Made by a program: the position numbers and the translations under genes
Source of the DNA: Ascidiaceihabitans donghaensis
GTDB lineage: Bacteria > Pseudomonadota > Alphaproteobacteria > Rhodobacterales > Rhodobacteraceae
Direction: 5' to 3'
NCBI RefSeq assembly: GCF_900302465.1
Contig: NZ_OMOR01000002.1
Coordinates: 1-64,000 of the forward strand
Length of the DNA: 64,000 nucleotides
The notes under the pieces: model-generated
Told to the model about the DNA's origin: nothing
What the model saw: the letters and a program-made list of their open reading frames with translations, nothing else
Databases searched by the model: none
In this document: positions 4,465-48,522 of the stretch, in pieces
Layout of the letters: every line of letters starts with the position of its first letter
Numbering within the stretch: position 1 is the first letter of the stretch

Positions 4465-4746
4465 ATGTCAAACTCTGACAACGCCACCCAGAAGTTCCAT
4501 TACATTTGCCAAACCTACGTTGAAAAAGATGCAGGCCGCGCTGGTCAGGCGACGTTGAAAATCGACAAGCAGTTCGAATATTCCAACGCCAATGATGCCC
4601 AAAACCGTGCCGAACGCGAAGCAATGCGCGACGATTGCGCAGGCGCGGATGCGTATATGCTGTGTGAAGACCTTGGCACCGGCGAAGTCGAAGCGCCCAG
4701 CTTTCTGGTACGTCTGGGGAATGTGCCCGAATTTGACGAATTTTAA
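4465..4746 (+). CDS. Small hypothetical protein, 93 aa
   Basis: This is a short, acidic soluble protein with no signal peptide or membrane segment and three cysteines. It contains a charged central helix-like stretch (residues ~40-55, NANDAQNRAEREAMRDDC). The ATG at 4465 is chosen because AGGAG sits 6 bp upstream; the longer frame from 4351 would run back through the dehydrogenase remnant. I do not recognise the family. It stands 88 bp before a TetR gene on the same strand and may be the first gene of that operon or independent. Codon use looks like that of neighbouring genes, which supports it being real. Confidence 0.65.
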   Translation: MSNSDNATQKFHYICQTYVEKDAGRAGQATLKIDKQFEYSNANDAQNRAEREAMRDDCAGADAYMLCEDLGTGEVEAPSFLVRLGNVPEFDEF

Positions 4747-4834
4747 GCCATACCAACACAGCCAGCGGAACGCCAAGCGCCGCTTGCATCATGCGCCATG
4801 ATCGCCAATTGTGGCAACAACAACGGAGCACCAG

Positions 4835-5494
4835 ATGCAAGACGGTAAAAAGGCAGGCGGACGTGGCCCCGGACGCACGACGCGTCAAGATTGGCTGACT
4901 GCGGCACTTGATACTCTGATCAGCGAAGGCGAGGATCAGGTCAAGGTTCTGTCTTTGGCGGCCATTCTGGACTGCCCGCGATCCAGTTTTTACTGGTACT
5001 TCAAAAACCGGTCCGAATTGATGGATGCATTGTTGGACACATGGGCCGCGACCAACACAAAAGCGTTGATTGATGCCGCTGACAACGACGGCGCTACAAT
5101 CTGCGAGGCGTTGGCAAAGCTGTTCAGCAAGTGGGTTTACGGATCGGCTTTTGATACCAAACTGGACTTTGCCATTCGCGATTGGGCCCGCAGATCAGGC
5201 ACGGTACGCCGTGCGCTGGACGAAAGCGACATCGCGCGAATTGCAGCCATCTCGCTGATGTTCGAACGTTTTTCATATCCCCCCGCTGAAGCGGATGTAC
5301 GGGCCCGCATCGTATATTTCACCCAAATCGGCTATGCCACACTGGATCAACGCGAAGACTACGACACACGTATGAAACGCGGGGCGCAGTATCTGTTCTG
5401 TATGACCGGACAAACCCCGACACGTGACGAAATCGCGGCCCTCGCCCATCTTTACCCCAAAACAAACTACGTAGGTATCGACCATGTTCTCTGA
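4835..5494 (+). CDS. TetR-family transcriptional regulator
   Basis: About 219 residues with an N-terminal TetR helix-turn-helix at residues ~18-65: DWLTAALDTLISEGEDQVKV, then CPRSSFYWYFKNRSELMDALL, the typical 'FYWYFKN' recognition-helix region. The C-terminal helical ligand domain is not diagnostic. The ATG at 4835 has GGAG 6 bp upstream and is preferred to the GTG at 4811. Its 3' end overlaps the next gene, a class V PLP enzyme, by 11 bp, so the two are translated from one message. TetR proteins usually repress their own operon until a ligand binds; regulation of the following three genes is therefore likely. Confidence 0.9.
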   Translation: MQDGKKAGGRGPGRTTRQDWLTAALDTLISEGEDQVKVLSLAAILDCPRSSFYWYFKNRSELMDALLDTWAATNTKALIDAADNDGATICEALAKLFSKWVYGSAFDTKLDFAIRDWARRSGTVRRALDESDIARIAAISLMFERFSYPPAEADVRARIVYFTQIGYATLDQREDYDTRMKRGAQYLFCMTGQTPTRDEIAALAHLYPKTNYVGIDHVL

Positions 5495-41484: not shown

Positions 41485-42485
41485 AGACCCCCTTTCCTTT
41501 CTCGGCCATTGTGGGCCAGTCCGACATGAAACAAGCGATGATCCTGACCGCAATCGATCCCGGAATAGGCGGCGTTTTGGTGTTCGGGGATCGCGGAACT
41601 GGAAAATCTACAGCCGTACGCGCATTGGCCGCCCTGTTGCCACCCATCACAGCCATCAAAGATTGCCCCATCAACGCAGAGACGGCAGACGAATGCCCCG
41701 AATGGTCCCAAAACAGCACAACAGAGACACATTCACGCCCGACGCCCGTTGTTGATCTGCCCTTGGGGGCCTCCGAAGATCGGGTTGTGGGGGCCTTGGA
41801 TATTGAACGCGCATTAACACGTGGGGAAAAGGCCTTTGAACCCGGATTGCTGGCCCGGGCCAACCGTGGGTATTTGTATATCGACGAAGTAAACCTGTTG
41901 GAAGATCACATCGTAGACCTTCTGCTGGACGTGGCGCAGTCTGGCGAAAATGTGGTTGAGCGCGAAGGCCTTTCCATTCGCCACCCTGCCCGCTTTGTAC
42001 TGGTGGGATCGGGCAACCCGGAAGAAGGCGAATTACGACCCCAATTGCTTGACCGTTTTGGCCTTTCCGTCGAAGTCCGCTCACCGCAGGACGTCAAGGA
42101 ACGCGTTGAAGTCATCAAACGGCGCGATGCCTTTGAACGTGACACAGATGCATTTCTGAAAACCTACATCAAACAAGATGCAAAAATCCGCAAGGCCATC
42201 GTTAAGGCCAAAGCCCTGTTGCCGACTGTGACGCAAGAGGATGACATCCTGAATGATTGCGCAGCGCTTTGCATCGCACTTGGGTCTGATGGCTTGCGGG
42301 GCGAATTGACTTTGTTGCGCAGCGCCCGCGCCTTGGCTGCCTATAAAGGGCATGACACAATCACCCGCGACCATTTGCGCACAGTGGCCCCCATCGCATT
42401 GCCCCACCGTTTGCGGCGCGATCCTTTGGATGATGCAGGCTCTGCCACCCGTGTCGTGCGCACCCTCGACACCGTTCTGGCATGA
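41481..42485 (+). CDS. bchI: Magnesium chelatase subunit I
   Basis: 334-residue AAA+ ATPase: Walker A VFGDRGTGKSTAVRALAALL (~residue 37), Walker B and sensor region RGYLYIDEVNLLEDHIVDLL (~135), and arginine-finger region ERLEGL-like GNPEEGELRPQLLDRFGLSV. With BchD it forms the ATP-driven ring that helps BchH insert Mg into protoporphyrin IX. It starts within the crtA stop and overlaps bchD by 4 bp. Confidence 0.97.
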   Translation: MKTPFPFSAIVGQSDMKQAMILTAIDPGIGGVLVFGDRGTGKSTAVRALAALLPPITAIKDCPINAETADECPEWSQNSTTETHSRPTPVVDLPLGASEDRVVGALDIERALTRGEKAFEPGLLARANRGYLYIDEVNLLEDHIVDLLLDVAQSGENVVEREGLSIRHPARFVLVGSGNPEEGELRPQLLDRFGLSVEVRSPQDVKERVEVIKRRDAFERDTDAFLKTYIKQDAKIRKAIVKAKALLPTVTQEDDILNDCAALCIALGSDGLRGELTLLRSARALAAYKGHDTITRDHLRTVAPIALPHRLRRDPLDDAGSATRVVRTLDTVLA

Positions 42486-44149
42486 AAGACGCCGCCGCCA
42501 ATTGGCATCGCGCCCAGCTGGCAATGGCGCTGTTGGCCGTGGACCCTGTCGGGTTGGGTGGCGCTGTAATCCGCATGCGCGCCGGCCCTGCCCGGGACAC
42601 CGTAGTGCAGGGTCTGGCGGACATCCCATTGCCGCTCCGCAAAATTCATCCAAATATTTCGGACGAACAGCTTTTTGGCGGAATTGACATCGCGGCCACG
42701 CTGGCAACCGGCCAAGTCATTGAAACAAATGGCATAATGTCAGCGCCCTGCGCCCTATTGCTGACCATGGCAGAGCGTTGCAGCCCTGCATTGGCCGCAA
42801 AGCTGGCTTTGACCTTGGACAAACACACCCACCACTGCATTCTCGCACTCGACGAAGGGGCAGACGCCGATGAAGGCTGCCCCCCTGCCCTATCTGACCG
42901 GCTGGCATTTCATGTGGCGTTCGACGACCGCATACCAAGTGCAGCGCCACATGTCCCCGCGGGGACGCCGCAGGGTCTCGTTGCAAATGTAACCTCGACC
43001 GGCGACCAGATCGAAGCGCTGACCGCTCTTGCGTATCAGCTGGGTATCACAAGCTTACGCGCCCCCCAGTTGGCCATCAAAGCAGCCCGCGCCCACGCGG
43101 CGCTGCATGGTAGACGTTCCGTTGAGCAAACGGACCTGGACGCAAGCGTAGCCTTGGTGCTTGCCCCACGCGCCCTTCATTTGCCTGTCCCGCCAGAAGA
43201 AGAAACCGTCCAAGACACCCAACCCCAGACAGAACCTGACGGCGCCGATGATGGGAACGCCAATCATGACGTCCTGCCTGACGGCGACATGTTGGTCGAC
43301 GCGGTAAAAGCCGTTCTGCCTGCAGATGTTTTGGCAGCACTTGTCCCCGTGGGGACAACGCGCAAAGCGGCAGGATCAGGCGCAGGATTGAAGCGGGCTT
43401 CGAACCGGCGTGGTCGCCCCCTGCCCTCGCAACCCGGCAAACTGGATGGCACACACCGCATCGATCTGGTCGCAACGCTTCGCGCAGCGGCACCTTGGCA
43501 GTCAGTGCGGGCAAAGCAACGCCCCGATGCGGACGGCTTGCATATCAGGCCATCAGACATCCGGGTCAAACGCTATCAGGAACGTTCTGACAGGCTTTTG
43601 GTCTTTGCGGTAGACGCCTCGGGCTCCACAGCTGTCTCACGTCTGGGCGAAGCAAAAGGCGCGATTGAACTGTTGCTGGCACAGGCATACGCCACACGCG
43701 ACCATGTAGCGTTGATTGCCTTCAAAGGCACAAGCGCAGACGTGTTGCTGCCCCCCACCAAGTCACTTGTGCAAACAAAGAAACGGCTGGCCGCCCTACC
43801 CGGCGGAGGAGGCACGCCTTTGGCAAACGGATTGCAGGAAGCGGCTTTGATGGCTCAGGCCGGACGCGCCAAGGGCCTGACCCCCACAATTGTCCTGATC
43901 ACAGATGGTCGCGCCAATGTAGGGCTGGACGGCACGGCGGGACGGGCGCAAGCCGCAGATGATGCCCTCGCCTGTGCAGGGGTCATTCGCACAAACGGGA
44001 TACCTGCATTGGTCATCGACATGAGCAACCGGCCCGAACCACAGCTTAAACATCTGTCAGCGGCCCTTGACGGATCATACATCGCCTTGCCACGCGCCAA
44101 TGCCGAACGGCTAAGCGCCGCTGTCAACGCATCCTTGGCAGAGGTTTGA
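42482..44149 (+). CDS. bchD: Magnesium chelatase subunit D (carries two internal parS-like palindromes)
   Basis: 555 residues in three parts: an AAA+-like domain without a working Walker A (residues 1-~240), an acidic Pro-rich linker (PVPPEEETVQDTQPQTEPDG, ~240-265), and a C-terminal integrin-I/VWA domain with the MIDAS motif VDASGSTAVSRLGEAKGAIE (~378). It couples ATP use by BchI to BchH. Two copies of the 14-bp GTCCCC-GY-GGGGAC palindrome lie inside the gene and are translated as VPAGT and VPVGT. Both fall in variable loops, so they can be tolerated. Confidence 0.96.
   Translation: MKDAAANWHRAQLAMALLAVDPVGLGGAVIRMRAGPARDTVVQGLADIPLPLRKIHPNISDEQLFGGIDIAATLATGQVIETNGIMSAPCALLLTMAERCSPALAAKLALTLDKHTHHCILALDEGADADEGCPPALSDRLAFHVAFDDRIPSAAPHVPAGTPQGLVANVTSTGDQIEALTALAYQLGITSLRAPQLAIKAARAHAALHGRRSVEQTDLDASVALVLAPRALHLPVPPEEETVQDTQPQTEPDGADDGNANHDVLPDGDMLVDAVKAVLPADVLAALVPVGTTRKAAGSGAGLKRASNRRGRPLPSQPGKLDGTHRIDLVATLRAAAPWQSVRAKQRPDADGLHIRPSDIRVKRYQERSDRLLVFAVDASGSTAVSRLGEAKGAIELLLAQAYATRDHVALIAFKGTSADVLLPPTKSLVQTKKRLAALPGGGGTPLANGLQEAALMAQAGRAKGLTPTIVLITDGRANVGLDGTAGRAQAADDALACAGVIRTNGIPALVIDMSNRPEPQLKHLSAALDGSYIALPRANAERLSAAVNASLAEV
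42953..42966. repeat. parS-like palindrome 1 (in bchD)
   Basis: GTCCCCGCGGGGAC, a perfect 14-bp palindrome preceded by T and followed by G. It is one of five related sites clustered around parAB. Confidence 0.7.
43343..43356. repeat. parS-like palindrome 2 (in bchD)
   Basis: GTCCCCGTGGGGAC, with symmetrical flanks TT and AA. One central base differs from copy 1, with G-T at the centre. Confidence 0.7.
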
Positions 44150-44150
44150 T

Positions 44151-45023
44151 ATGAAGTGGCCTGTGCCCACGGACTGGCCGAATAGCGGGACGTCACGGCG
44201 CATCTTTAACGCACCGCACCGATGGCACGTACAACAAATGGGGCAGGGGCCGGTCGCTTTGCTTTTGCACGGGGCAGGGGGCAGCACACACAGTTTCGCA
44301 TGGCTTATGCCACTTTTGGCTGACCACTTCACTGTCGTGGCAATCGATCTGCCCGGGCATGGCTTTACGCAGCTTGGCGCACGGCACCGAAGCGGCCTTT
44401 CACCCATGGCCGAAGACATATCAGCCCTGTGCCAAGAACAAGGGTGGAAGCCCGACGTCATCATTGGCCATTCAGCTGGCTGCGCCCTTGCACTTGAAAT
44501 GTGCGACGCCATTTTGTCCCCGCGGGGACACATTCCCAAAGTCGTCGGCATAAACGCGGCCCTAAGCACATTCGAAGGCATCGCAGGTGTACTTTTTCCC
44601 GCGATGGCAAAAGCGCTTGCCGCCCTTCCGTTCACCGCAAAAATATTCTCCGAACTGGCAGGCAAACAAACGCGGGTTCAGTCCCTAATCGGCGGAACAG
44701 GGTCAAGCCTTGCCCCCGATCAGATCGATTTATACACACGATTGATTTCTGACCGTGACCATGTGGATGGGGCGCTGTTGATGATGTCTCAATGGTCTTT
44801 GGACGCACTGTTGGGCCGGCTACACTCAATCAGCACCCAGACACTGCTGTTGGCTGGCGCGCAAGACAAGACGGTTCCTGCGACGGTATCCGCAAACGCG
44901 GCCCATGCCTTACCCTACGCACGGTCAATGGTTCTTGAAGGGTTGGGCCACTTAGCACACGAAGAAGACCCTAATCTGGTGTTTAGAGCCATAATTGACT
45001 TTGTTGATCAGTCCGCCAGTTGA
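44151..45023 (+). CDS. bchO: BchO, alpha/beta-hydrolase of the magnesium chelatase operon
   Basis: 290 residues with the nucleophile elbow in DVIIGHSAGCALALEMCD (~residue 107), oxyanion region LLLHGAGGSTHSFAWLMPLL (~40) and catalytic His in LEGLGHLAHEEDP near the end. BchO always accompanies bchI-bchD, and its exact role in Mg-protoporphyrin formation is not established. It starts 1 bp after bchD. The 3' end overlaps the convergent parB stop by 16 bp, and a parS-like palindrome is inside the gene, showing intimate contact with the partition module. Confidence 0.93.
   Translation: MKWPVPTDWPNSGTSRRIFNAPHRWHVQQMGQGPVALLLHGAGGSTHSFAWLMPLLADHFTVVAIDLPGHGFTQLGARHRSGLSPMAEDISALCQEQGWKPDVIIGHSAGCALALEMCDAILSPRGHIPKVVGINAALSTFEGIAGVLFPAMAKALAALPFTAKIFSELAGKQTRVQSLIGGTGSSLAPDQIDLYTRLISDRDHVDGALLMMSQWSLDALLGRLHSISTQTLLLAGAQDKTVPATVSANAAHALPYARSMVLEGLGHLAHEEDPNLVFRAIIDFVDQSAS
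44516..44529. repeat. parS-like palindrome 3 (in bchO)
   Basis: GTCCCCGCGGGGAC with T and A flanks (16-bp palindrome TGTCCCCGCGGGGACA). Here it is read in a different frame (LSPRGH), so conservation is at DNA level. Confidence 0.75.
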
Positions 45024-46057
45024 TCCAAAAAACTGCGCACCGCAGCCTCAAGTTTGCGTTGATCTATTGCACCGAAATTTCGATCCAACTGGACTTCGAA
45101 ACGTCCGTCTGTCGCGGTGCACCGTGCCTGTCCTTCAGGGCGGTTCAACTTAAGCGTCGTCTTCGCACTGGACTTCGCGGAAACAGGTGCCGCCGCGCGT
45201 TTCGGGCCAGCGAGACTTGCGGACAGAATGCCCAATTCCTCAGAGGCATCACGTTTAGGATGCGCCCTTAGAACGGCGGCGATCTGTGTGACCAGTTTAG
45301 GATTGCTTTCAATTGCTTTCACCACCTTCAAACCCAAGGCGCGCGGAATGGCTTCGGCATGCATCAGGTCACGGCCTAGGACTTGCAGCAGATGGGCAAA
45401 GTGGCGAATGTAGCTGCGCTTTTGCCGGCCTGCCGAGGCGAACAGAATATCCACAGCATCACGGGCGGCTGTCGTGTCTGAACGCTTTGAATACGACAAT
45501 GCCAACTGCGCCATTTCAGCAAATGAGATGTCGCGCCGCACAAGGTTTTCATCCACCATACGGCGATACAGATGGTCCAGTTGCACACCGCTGGCCTGCA
45601 AGGTCGCCGGGATCTGCGCGTACATCGGATCGCGCGTATCTTGATACAATTCCTGATAGGCCGACAAACGGCGAAAGCCTTGGATCAATTCGTACCCGCC
45701 GCCGATGTCTTCCACGTGGATCGGGTTGGACAGACCAACAGCTTGAATGGACGCCTTCAATTCAGCCAGTTCAGGGTCGCGTGACGCGGCGCGGTCACGG
45801 ATCAACTTGGTGGTGTGAATATCTGTCAACGCGACCCGCGCCACGATGGCACCGTCTTTTTTCAACGCGACATATTCATGGGCAAGACGATCGTTTTCCG
45901 CGCGAATGTCAGCCTCGGCGGATTGGCGTTCTGTCAGCGCTGCGGCGTTTTCGGAAATGGCAGAGGCCATAGGCCCGCGCCGGGTTTCGCCCACGGTGGA
46001 TATTGCCGGTGTGGGCTCTGCTTCAAAGTCGATGTCAAATACGCGGCGCTTGCTCAT
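45008..46057 (-). CDS. parB: ParB-family chromosome/plasmid partition protein
   Basis: 349 residues. The ParB N-terminal nuclease-like/CTPase domain spans ~75-165: ARVALTDIHTTKLIRDRAAS, then ELKASIQAVGLSNPIHVEDI and ELIQGFRRLSAYQELY with the GxRR box. A helix-turn-helix region follows (SFAEMAQLALSYSKRSDTTA, ~190-215). The protein should load on a palindromic centromere and be moved by ParA. It overlaps the parA stop by 4 bp. Five palindromic candidate sites lie within 3 kb. The gene ends within bchO on the opposite strand. Confidence 0.93.
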   Translation of the reverse strand: MSKRRVFDIDFEAEPTPAISTVGETRRGPMASAISENAAALTERQSAEADIRAENDRLAHEYVALKKDGAIVARVALTDIHTTKLIRDRAASRDPELAELKASIQAVGLSNPIHVEDIGGGYELIQGFRRLSAYQELYQDTRDPMYAQIPATLQASGVQLDHLYRRMVDENLVRRDISFAEMAQLALSYSKRSDTTAARDAVDILFASAGRQKRSYIRHFAHLLQVLGRDLMHAEAIPRALGLKVVKAIESNPKLVTQIAAVLRAHPKRDASEELGILSASLAGPKRAAAPVSAKSSAKTTLKLNRPEGQARCTATDGRFEVQLDRNFGAIDQRKLEAAVRSFLDQLAD

Positions 46058-47358
46058 GTCTCGTCCTCCAGTTTGTCCCAGGCATCTGTCAGATTGGTGC
46101 GGAATTCCGCATAAGCCTGATCAAACGACGCCCGTGCACGTCGCCATGTTTCGCGCGTCATATCGCGGTAGTCGATTTCATAGATTGACGACAAAAACCG
46201 CCCCGATTGTTCAACGGCACGCGTCATTTCAATGGGGTGTTCCGTCAATCTATCCCCGAACACTTTGCCAAAGGCAGACTGCATTGCGCGGTGCAATTCG
46301 TTGTTCGGCTCAAACCGTGTGATCAGGAAACGCAGATCAAGAAAGGCCTTGGGCAAGTTCATTGTCCCCGCGGGGACAAGACCCTGAAAGCGCGACAAGT
46401 CTTCAAGCGCTTCGGACAATTGCCCGATAAAAGATGTCGTTGAATCGTATTCCCAATAACCGGGGCCGGACGGGATATAAAGCATGTCGGCGGCGAACAC
46501 CGCGTTCATTGATTGGTACCCGATCGCAGGGGGGCAATCGAACAAGATCACGTCGTAGGCATCCGCCGGCAGCTGATCAAGGAACCGCGACACCGCTGCG
46601 AAGAAAGACCATTCGGGGTTCATGTGGCGGTATTGGGCGGACGCAAACTCGACAAAAGCGGCATTGGCGCAGCTGGGCACGATGTCGATGGTCGGCCAGT
46701 TCGTCGGCTTGATGAAATCAGCGGCCCGCAACCCTTCCAACCCCATATCGGCGATGGATTGGGGCAAACGCCGTTGGGGCAGGGCGGCGCCACTTTCGGC
46801 GCCTTGTGCCGCCGAATTCATGCGTTTGGTTTCTGCGGCCAAATCCCGCGCCATGATGCCCCAGACGGTGTATTCCTCGGCGACATCGGTGAGTCCCATG
46901 GAGTGGCTGAGTGTTGCCTGCGGATCAAAGTCGACGCACAGCACGCGGTAGCCATCAAGGGCTGCGGCATGGGCAAAGTGCAACGCCACGGTGGACTTGC
47001 CTGCGCCCCCTTTAAAATTGGCAATGGCCGCCCGCATTGCCCGTTTGCCAGCGGGGCGTTTGGGCATCAGCGACTTGCGGTTCACCTTCAAACGGCGGCG
47101 CAATTCGTTGATTTCCTCAAGGCTGTACCAGCGTTGCCGTCCGTCTTCTTCCACCGTGCCTTGAGGTAGGGTGGGGTCAGCGGCCAAGCGCCCGCGCATG
47201 GTGGATTGGTTCACCTCAAAGATCAGCTCTGCCACCTCCCAGCTTGAAAACCGCCGCAGTGATTTTTCATTCTGGGGTGAAAACGTCTGCTGCCGGATAA
47301 AGCCCTGCATTTTCAAGGATTGGGCCTGTAACTGGGCGAGATCTGCGTGTGTGAACAT
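46054..47358 (-). CDS. parA: ParA-family partition ATPase
   Basis: About 434 residues from the ATG at 47358; an upstream ATG at 47421 lacks a ribosome site and would read through a palindrome. An N-terminal DNA-binding region (residues ~40-95, SWEVAELIFEVNQSTMRGRL and a following YSLEEINELRRRLKV, MerR-like) precedes the ATPase with deviant Walker A NFKGGAGKSTVALHFAHAAA (~115) and Walker B DVILFDCPPAIGYQSM (~270). The long N-terminus is typical of plasmid and secondary-chromosome ParA proteins (type Ia), which also repress their own operon. One palindrome lies within it and one 30 bp upstream of its start. Confidence 0.93.
   Translation of the reverse strand: MFTHADLAQLQAQSLKMQGFIRQQTFSPQNEKSLRRFSSWEVAELIFEVNQSTMRGRLAADPTLPQGTVEEDGRQRWYSLEEINELRRRLKVNRKSLMPKRPAGKRAMRAAIANFKGGAGKSTVALHFAHAAALDGYRVLCVDFDPQATLSHSMGLTDVAEEYTVWGIMARDLAAETKRMNSAAQGAESGAALPQRRLPQSIADMGLEGLRAADFIKPTNWPTIDIVPSCANAAFVEFASAQYRHMNPEWSFFAAVSRFLDQLPADAYDVILFDCPPAIGYQSMNAVFAADMLYIPSGPGYWEYDSTTSFIGQLSEALEDLSRFQGLVPAGTMNLPKAFLDLRFLITRFEPNNELHRAMQSAFGKVFGDRLTEHPIEMTRAVEQSGRFLSSIYEIDYRDMTRETWRRARASFDQAYAEFRTNLTDAWDKLEDET
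46364..46377. repeat. parS-like palindrome 4 (in parA)
   Basis: GTCCCCGCGGGGAC with T and A flanks, again giving VPAGT in the encoded ParA. Confidence 0.75.
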
Positions 47359-47387
47359 GGTATGCCTGTCGCTGGTGTCTATATGCT

Positions 47388-47401
47388 GTCCCCGTGGGGA
47401 C
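47388..47401. repeat. parS-like palindrome 5 (upstream of parA)
   Basis: GTCCCCGTGGGGAC, 30 bp ahead of the preferred parA start. At this position it could also be an operator for ParA/ParB autoregulation. Confidence 0.7.
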
Positions 47402-47563
47402 GCTATTTTTGTGTTTTCCATGATTTACGCTGATTTGGAGAAAAAAGCAAAAGGGAATATGGTTTTCGCAGGGTGCCCTTTCTCCAAGCAGATATGGGCG
47501 TATCAGCGCTTGGAATGATTCGGAACATCGCATCATGACATAACCGACATCGCCCAAAACCTA

Positions 47564-47698
47564 GGGGACAGTTTTTGACCATCCGCTAGGGAATGGGGGA
47601 CACAACGAACCAAATAGGGGACACACAGGCTGTCACCCTATACCTAACTTACCTAATTTTCTTTCTAAAATTGGTTTAGGCGGATCAAGTTATCCACA
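47564..47698. other. Candidate replication origin (half-site repeats, AT-rich stretch, DnaA box)
   Basis: The 480-bp gap between the divergent parA and initiator genes holds three direct GGGGACA copies at 47564-47570, 47596-47602 and 47617-47623, equal to one arm of the parS-like palindrome. An AT-rich stretch (~47640-47680) follows, then a perfect TTATCCACA DnaA box (47690-47698). A 6-bp inverted repeat CCAAGC/GCTTGG (47484-47513) lies closer to parA. Repeats, an easily melted stretch and a DnaA box next to an initiator gene are what a plasmid origin looks like; function is inferred. Confidence 0.6.
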
Positions 47699-47838
47699 TG
47701 CGTCTTGACAGAATCGTACAAAAGGACGCAAATCAGGACACAGAGACGAAAAGCGGCGACAAGCTGCATGAATGAGCCGCAACAGGCCATAATGAGGCAC
47801 CATCCGCACAAACGTGATGGTAACATATGAGGGCAGCC

Positions 47839-48522
47839 ATGCTTTCCACGAAACCGGTGGGACGTGGAGCACAGGCGCGCAAATACGATCTTCTGACAGC
47901 ATTGGGGGCCTATGCCCTATCGCAAGGCAAGCATGATCAGCGCCGTGTTCTAAGACTAATGACTTTAATAACTGCGCGCTACAATTGGGCGCGTGATGAA
48001 CTTAGCGTGGGGGGCCGTGAAATCGCCCGCATGTGGTGCGTCGACGAACGCACTGTAAAACGCGAGATGGCGTATTTGCGCACGCGCGGATGGCTTGTTG
48101 TGCACCTGCAAGGGGCGCGGGGACGGGTCACGCGATACGGTGTTGATTGGGACAGGATCATCGCAGACACGCAGCCCCAATGGGACGCTGTCGGGCCGGA
48201 CTTTGCCCTGCGCATGGGGGCACAGGACGCGGTGGACACCACCGTTGTGCCGATGCCTGTGAAAGGCACTGTTGTGGCGCCTGACGTGTCTGATGGCACG
48301 GAATGGGCTTTGGCCAAGGGGTTGATGCATACGCAGGATGCAGGGCTTTATGCGTCTTGGATCAGCGGTTTGGACCGGGCCGGTCGGGTAGGGGGGGTGC
48401 TGACGATCAAGGCTCCGTCGCGCTTTCATGCCGCCTATGTGCAAAGCCATCTGGAGGCGCGGCTTTTGCGGGTCTGTAGGGACGTTGACAGCGATGTAAC
48501 GGAAATTCGCATCGTTACATGA
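47839..48522 (+). CDS. DnaA-like replication initiator (Rhodobacterales DnaA-like plasmid type)
   Basis: About 227 residues from the ATG at 47839 (GAGGG 5 bp upstream; another ATG at 47827). Residues ~10-110 include a helix-turn-helix: VGGREIARMWCVDERTVKRE followed by MAYLRTRGWLVVHLQGARGR. The C-terminal ~75 residues (LYASWISGLDRAGRVGGVLT, then IKAPSRFHAAYVQSHLEARL) resemble the DnaA N-terminal domain (DnaA_N), used for helicase recruitment, but there is no AAA+ ATPase domain. This matches the 'DnaA-like' replicases described on Roseobacter-group plasmids. Next to parAB and a DnaA box, it is almost certainly the initiator of this replicon. Confidence 0.85.
   Translation: MLSTKPVGRGAQARKYDLLTALGAYALSQGKHDQRRVLRLMTLITARYNWARDELSVGGREIARMWCVDERTVKREMAYLRTRGWLVVHLQGARGRVTRYGVDWDRIIADTQPQWDAVGPDFALRMGAQDAVDTTVVPMPVKGTVVAPDVSDGTEWALAKGLMHTQDAGLYASWISGLDRAGRVGGVLTIKAPSRFHAAYVQSHLEARLLRVCRDVDSDVTEIRIVT

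Follow-up and report, generated by a model that had tools for sequence, protein, structure and literature searches.

A 64,000-nucleotide stretch of the Ascidiaceihabitans donghaensis genome (positions 1 to 64,000 of contig NZ_OMOR01000002.1, hereafter the window) contains five copies of a 14-base-pair (bp) palindrome, GTCCCCGYGGGGAC, around an adjoining parA-parB gene pair. bchD holds two of them and bchO a third, and the remaining two are associated with parA, one within the gene and the other in its leader or first codons. The window sits in a contig of 138,640 bases (contig 1 of the genome has 3.73 Mb), most probably a plasmid that carries the photosynthesis gene cluster. Judged from sequence comparison, the palindromes are very probably the parS sites of the ParABS system of this plasmid, presumably of DnaA-like I type. 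A putative parS cluster lying partly inside bchD and bchO had been proposed in an earlier, sequence-only reading, and it is supported by the distribution of the palindrome as well as by the observation that its sequence tracks residue 211 of ParB.

The five copies were found exactly where the sequence-only reading had placed them, at positions 42953, 43343, 44516, 46364 and 47388; three are perfect palindromes centred on GC, and the other two are centred on GT. Site 1 (42953..42966) and site 2 (43343..43356, GT centre) are located in bchD and spell V-P-A-G-T (BchD residues 158-162) and V-P-V-G-T (residues 288-292). Site 3 (44516..44529) is located in bchO and is read in another frame, giving S-P-R-G-H (BchO residues 123-127). 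Site 4 (46364..46377) lies inside parA and spells VPAGT on the minus strand. With a parA start at 47358, site 5 (47388..47401, GT centre) belongs to the leader; with a start at 47421, it falls within the first codons. As claimed before, the 64-kb window contains no further copy: a scan revealed no other position with fewer than two mismatches to GTCCCCGYGGGGAC. The clustering around parAB also holds, with five copies in 4.5 kb and no others in the whole genome of the organism (4,077,640 bases, seven contigs) at up to one mismatch; thus the palindrome is not scattered over its own 4.08-Mb genome. A reversed control pattern gave two forward matches and one reverse match in the same genome. The window has four perfect 14-bp palindromes of two kinds, and only the GTCCCCGYGGGGAC kind is repeated (three times). 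The exact 14-mer with GC centre is present in 41 of 394 genomes of the family, and the consensus in relatives is 16 bp long, TGTCCCCGCGGGGACA. Chance occurrence was rejected on the basis of the own-genome search, the search of the 394 genomes and the synonymous-shuffling counts given below.

The sites inside the bch genes accompany the partition genes. We compared 106 distinct bchD loci, after dropping hits shorter than 1000 bases and loci whose first 900 bases were identical; par status was assigned by a ParA or ParB match of more than 150 bits, so that the ParA-less locus L183 is counted as par. A site core was present in bchD or bchO in 31 of the 33 loci with adjacent par genes and in one of the 67 loci without them, the exception being a near-intact relic from the same genus. 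The palindrome is therefore not equally frequent in chromosomal bchD without parAB, a possibility that the sequence-only reading had raised against itself; it is absent from 66 of the 67 such bchD/bchO loci. On contigs too short to tell the par status, one of six bchD loci had a core. In a bchD and bchO tree calculated with the site columns removed (a quick tree without bootstrap), par status changes 16-17 times. Independent pairs on well supported branches, with the six loci of unknown par status left out, differ in the same direction in 12 of 14 cases, in the opposite direction in none and are alike in two (p 0.0005).

Altogether, 94 sites are found in the 33 par-adjacent loci, while 1.37 are expected after synonymous shuffling. 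They occupy nine places in BchD and five in BchO and use all three frames (VPAGT, SPRG and CPRGD). At thirteen of the 14 places, conservation in par-free homologues falls below the 40th percentile (L014, L020 and L203 were left out of the par-free rows). Par-free or chromosomal BchD proteins have mostly unrelated residues at these places, and VPAGT and SPRG are not conserved there, which shows that the conserved thing is the DNA site and not the peptide. Under local codon use, VPAG has a 0.7% chance of being spelled as the palindrome. Selection on DNA rather than on protein had been suggested from the different frames of the window copies (VPAGT, VPVGT, LSPRGH); the frame use, the shuffling counts and the unconserved peptides of chromosomal homologues all agree with it. 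A photosynthesis cluster with intact rep, parAB and sites was also observed on a contig of 1,074,209 bases (L195/L224, contig 10 of G397), which is possibly an integrated plasmid, a very large replicon or an assembly join.

A search with ParB in 72,556 plasmid records returned 607 records with a match, and homologues with E <=1e-40 were found in 98 of the 394 family genomes, at 103 places including that of the window; of the 102 others, 100 were fetched (L200 and L201 were taken as R. litoralis and R. ponti). The photosynthesis plasmids of R. litoralis (pRLO149_94), Thalassococcus S3, R. ponti and Tateyamaria omphalii have the same layout, and the palindrome occurs 5-10 times in each of them, within or close to parA, parB, bchO and bchD. 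The palindrome also surrounds parAB in four fetched plasmids without photosynthesis genes near parAB, from Parasedimentitalea, Leisingera, Falsirhodobacter and Phaeobacter. The site thus belongs to the partition module and not to photosynthesis. Copy numbers can be higher: the Leisingera methylohalidivorans plasmid L011 has 16 perfect copies, 12 of which lie in the stretch that separates the annotated parB from the following annotated gene (L011:9107-10168), mostly at a spacing of about 100 bases, and L127 (G088) has eight copies beside and at the end of parB (4527-5110), the first six spaced by 54-56 bases. Five genomes (G001, G037, G081, G088 and G266) contain 14-17 exact 14-mers each, which exceeds the number at the fetched par locus; other, large contigs carry some of those of G001 and G081, a mild scattering despite a full parAB.

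A motif-free search revealed clade-specific palindromes at the same places: TGTCCCCGCGGGGACA and palindromes beginning with CTTCCCC, TTTCCCC, GTTCCCC, CTTACCC or CTTATCC. Classing needs at least three sites, and 96 of the 113 loci examined gave a class (the duplicates L096, L116 and L129 and loci without a strong ParA were left out). The place of site 4 inside parA is occupied in 89 of the 96 classed loci, namely in 46/47, 28/33 and 15/16 loci of three grouped classes, whose common peptides there are VPAGT, FPAGK and LPTGK, respectively. The outer bases of the site covary with residue 211 of ParB, with few independent switches and one exception. This residue is R in 47/47 loci of the GT class, that of TGTCCCCGCGGGGACA, Y in 34/34 CTT-class loci, P or A in 7/7 TTT-class loci and K in three of four GTT-class loci; the fourth, from Cognatishimia, has R211, and four further loci have no clear outer base. 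The ParB of the window has R211, in the presumed recognition helix. In an alignment by eye to Caulobacter ParB, residue 211 presumably corresponds to the first residues of the recognition helix. Residues of this helix that contact parS in Caulobacter ParB have been named (PMC7383237).

The Cognatishimia locus (strain MH4019, L021) contains rep, parAB, bchD and bchO. Four copies of GTTCCCCGCGGGGAAC are located in its bchD, in bchO, in parB and before parA, and it keeps the GGGGACA iterons. A class change in dispersed copies with iterons retained is what a change in ParB specificity predicts. GTTCCCCGCGGGGAAC fits the repABC parS consensus GTTNNNNGCNNNNAAC (PMC9040568), from which the window sites, being TGTCCCCGCGGGGACA-like, differ.

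The module of the window consists of rep, parA and parB. On the plus strand, bchD (42482..44149, 555 amino acids; NF009943 above cut-off) encodes magnesium chelatase subunit D and is followed by bchO (44151..45023, 290 amino acids; TIGR03056 above cut-off). The 3' ends of bchO and parB overlap by 16 bases, and therefore no intergenic space remains after parB. parB (45008..46057, minus strand) codes for a RepB/ParB-like protein of 349 amino acids with family matches below the curated cut-offs; its ParB_N match of 25.0 bits is just below the cut-off of 26.3. The parA open reading frame (46054..47421, minus strand) codes for a RepA-like Walker ATPase with an AAA_31 match, and the start at 47358 is the probable one, as it gives 434 amino acids, the length of R. 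litoralis ParA. The two open reading frames adjoin and thus pair a ParA-type ATPase with a ParB-type DNA-binding protein. The divergent rep gene (47827..48522, plus strand, 231 amino acids) encodes a DnaA-like replication initiator; its DnaA_N match is weak, below the Pfam cut-off, and it matches no NCBIfam model. L009-L013 show the same layout, and a DnaA N-terminal domain protein is annotated in four of these five. Among the plasmids listed, the ParB closest to that of the window is the one of R. litoralis, which is reported as DnaA-like I. Three iteron-like repeats with GGGGACA lie on the plus strand at 47562-47570, 47594-47602 and 47615-47623, and are spaced by 32 and 21, as in many relatives. 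The parS half-site and the iteron are identical in the GT class, so that cross-talk between ParB and the origin might occur.

The distribution of the sites, their covariation with ParB, their loss and their effect on codons emerge from comparison across genomes, from which we infer binding by ParB and a role in segregation. ParB most likely loads onto the palindromes, and ParA would move the partition complex. Since parB abuts bchO, the extra sites that other plasmids keep downstream of parB would have arisen inside bchO and bchD, where selection on the DNA may keep them and fix the local residues (VPAGT, SPRG, CPRGD) in stretches tolerant of change. Once a cluster lacks parAB, as on the chromosome, its sites would be free to wear away. 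It is plausible, as the sequence-only reading proposed, that deletion of the bch genes would harm plasmid stability, and loss of the bch sites is expected to reduce stability rather than abolish it. Two sites of the window lie outside the bch genes, and 26 of the 74 classed loci without bch genes have only three detected sites; the bch sites may therefore add to stability without being essential.

Three other explanations were considered. The palindromes could be ParB-dependent operators that tune parAB and bch expression through silencing by spreading, with segregation being secondary. ParB proteins are known to spread from sites inside genes, and a site in the parA leader, as in the window, is common, with 75 of the 96 classed loci having one at -150 to +25 of the parA match. 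The bch sites, however, lie deep within coding regions at the 14 places described above, and in L011 most copies are found downstream of parB, so that the number and nearness of sites seem to matter and not the position of promoters. We regard the operator function as unlikely.

Less probable still, and in our view very unlikely, is that they serve the replication initiator as iteron-related operators or in handcuffing. They are close to rep, and each half, TGTCCCC, equals the sequence of the nearby iterons. However, GGGGACA repeats occur in 97 of 98 spacers between rep and parA, including 43/43 outside the GT class, where the palindromes are TTCCCC, TTACCC or TTATCC, and in the GT class they occur outside perfect palindromes in 41/41 spacers. 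Likewise, the Cognatishimia locus combines four GTT-class palindromes with retained iterons, and the palindrome class follows the ParB residue. Since the GGGGACA repeats do not change with the palindrome class, we rejected the initiator as the principal explanation. That VPAGT and SPRG are conserved peptides with codons palindromic by accident can practically be dismissed: many plasmid-borne BchD copies do have VPAGT or VPVGT at the same positions, but the unrelated residues of most chromosomal BchD proteins, the excess over synonymous shuffling, the improbable codon spelling and the use of all three frames led us to reject it.

Traces of the sites were also found in photosynthesis clusters without par genes. 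The closest relative of the window bchD comes from the same genus and lies on a contig of 583,857 bases (L014, which we took to be the same genome as G187); this genome contains no match to the window ParB. An IS21-family element (IstB_IS21 match; L014:13195-15660) follows bchO at the place where parAB would be and may mark the way in which the plasmid module disappeared. L014 still spells VPAGT twice and SPRG once, with one perfect site, one single change and one AC centre, which suggests a near-intact and presumably recent relic. Its interpretation as a decaying relic was rejected, because one-base changes of these kinds occur in intact plasmids, both of them in the par-linked R. litoralis. 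The association with par genes does not rest on L014, and the probability of the parS interpretation is therefore unaffected by this weaker reading of the locus.

Within the Roseobacter genus set, 17 of 19 genomes have bchD, and no site was found in the four full-length par-free Roseobacter loci. On the tree, a par-free Roseobacter locus on a contig of 4,133,097 bases (G395), which we take to be from R. denitrificans OCh 114, groups as the sister of R. litoralis. Its site places read PAPAGT, LAPAGT and FSPQEQ, which we interpret as the worn footprint of former sites. When R. litoralis is compared with each of two other plasmids, the three shared sites show just 2 differences in 42 bases, with a background of 1236/4520 and 1216/4572 (about 27%; p 0.0004 and 0.0006).

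Several observations weigh against the parS interpretation or narrow it. Two loci with par genes, L119 and L123, have no site core in bchD or bchO (L119 has a one-mismatch version in bchO). The later fetched locus of Sulfitobacter sp. S190 (L249), which like those of S. guttiformis (L247/L248) and S. alexandrii (L250/L251) stands outside the 106-locus counts, would make the tally 31/34; a divergent ParB (34% identity) is encoded beside its bchO, with only a different palindrome. This perfect 24-bp palindrome, CAGGGTTACCCGCGGGTAACCCTG, lies between bchO and the divergent parB (L249:4237-4260) and probably serves as parS in a different compatibility group. The S. guttiformis replicon is of another type and has its own parAB, no par genes were found in the fetched flank of S. 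alexandrii, and the window palindrome is absent from the fetched regions of all three. The tree needs only five motif changes, so that independent support for the classes is limited, and tests with independent pairs for joint switching of residue 211 and class were not significant, with too few events. Cognatishimia breaks the residue 211 rule, having R with GTT, and its place inside parA still carries GTCCCCGCAGGGAC, a GT-class site with one mismatch. The sites of L014 are nearly intact without parAB and are changed in the ways seen in par-linked plasmids. In G395, 14 of 56 bases differ at the sites versus 624 of 3948 in the background, an excess that is not significant (p 0.067). Being unshared, the fourth R. 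litoralis site was excluded from the plasmid comparison; with it, 10 and 6 of 56 bases differ.

Five genomes encode a shortened ParB, in which the match begins at residue 57-71, with no closely related parA beside it: L183:4965-6110 (G063), L188:3748-4986 (G247), L253 (G424), L254 (G433) and L187:4995-6359 (G034). In G063 and G034 no parA was found by the gene; in G247, G424 and G433 the parA there is only 30-31% identical, and that of G247 belongs to a repABC module. The stranded ParB of G063 lies beside the photosynthesis cluster. At position 211, these proteins have R in G063, G247 and G424, P in G433 and Y in G034. Exact 16-mers are scattered through three of these genomes, with 79 in G063, 62 in G247 and 35 in G424. 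For G433 and G034 we predicted TTCCCCGCGGGGAA from the TTCCCC-class palindromes beside their genes and then searched for it, which gave 22 copies in G433 and 33 in G034. The class of the scattered copies agrees with that of the sites next to the shortened gene. Five of the six other genomes searched (G425, G426, G434, G000 and G247) lack TTCCCCGCGGGGAA; the sixth, G428, which has a parA-parB pair, contains one copy. Three of the 15 genomes in the genus of G247 contain the 16-mer, among them G433 with a single copy, and it is these three that have the closest orphan ParB. The ParB matches of G428 and G432 are more distant, and neither genome has the 16-mer. Eleven of 25 sampled sites in G034 are intergenic by a crude gene call, and GC skew, taken from 20 sampled stretches, proved too noisy for locating origin and terminus and hence an origin bias of the sites.

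Orphan ParB genes with scattered sites look like a possible Noc-style reuse of a plasmid ParB. Noc is a relative of ParB without the part that binds ParA, and its specificity is set by few residues (PMC7383237, PMC12704722); its binding sites (NBS) are scattered (PMC4331003). The likeness applies to the orphans and not to the window, and the orphans would derive from the plasmid RepB-like ParB of Rhodobacteraceae.

The closest precedent for the window is parS in cas genes linked to repABC. In repABC replicons of Rhodobacterales, parS sites include some within the reading frames of cas3, casA and casB, for which positive selection within the coding sequence has been proposed (PMC9040568). Both systems have several palindromes near the partition genes and extra copies downstream, some in cargo genes; the window differs in having a DnaA-like rep instead of repC and other cargo. 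For the window and its relatives, the comparison documents peptides dictated by the sites, phylogenetic pairs, differences between classes and fossils on chromosomes. A palindrome has been named as putative partition anchor in a Phaeobacter RepABC operon (PMC3910702). On the Pseudomonas aeruginosa chromosome, nine of ten parS sites are predicted within coding sequences; they were recoded silently for study, and the writing of amino acids by the site is not a topic in the part of that work considered here (PMC4368675). DnaA-like I photosynthesis plasmids, presumably the same kind of plasmid as that of the window, have the module at one position in the photosynthesis cluster, and reintegration of the R. 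denitrificans cluster has already been inferred (PMC6052148, PMC6739100). The word palindrome is absent from the main texts of these two papers, and to their inference the fossils described here add independent sequence evidence. The exact 14-mer was not found in the literature searched, whose scope excluded the founding plasmid papers of 2011/2012, which may mention the palindrome; among the titles listed by the searches, none is on parS in photosynthesis genes. A parS within a gene is not new as such; what makes the present case a strong variant is that the sites dictate peptides, have left fossils on chromosomes and show a switch of class.

Taken further, parS copies may repeatedly arise in the gene abutting parB, fix peptides, change class with the ParB residue and fossilise after chromosomal capture, and a ParB without ParA may have become a chromosome-wide, Noc-like site binder more than once in Rhodobacteraceae; we put forward this wider scenario tentatively. 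The window and its relatives offer a phylogenetically replicated case in which selection for DNA partition sites sets the protein sequence of unrelated enzymes, as well as a natural series of ParB-parS specificity classes with residue 211 as candidate single-residue code. The palindrome together with VPAGT or SPRG could serve as a practical marker, which from the bchD sequence alone suggests that the cluster of a draft genome is, or recently was, on such a plasmid. The sequence fossils support a movement of photosynthesis between plasmid and chromosome.

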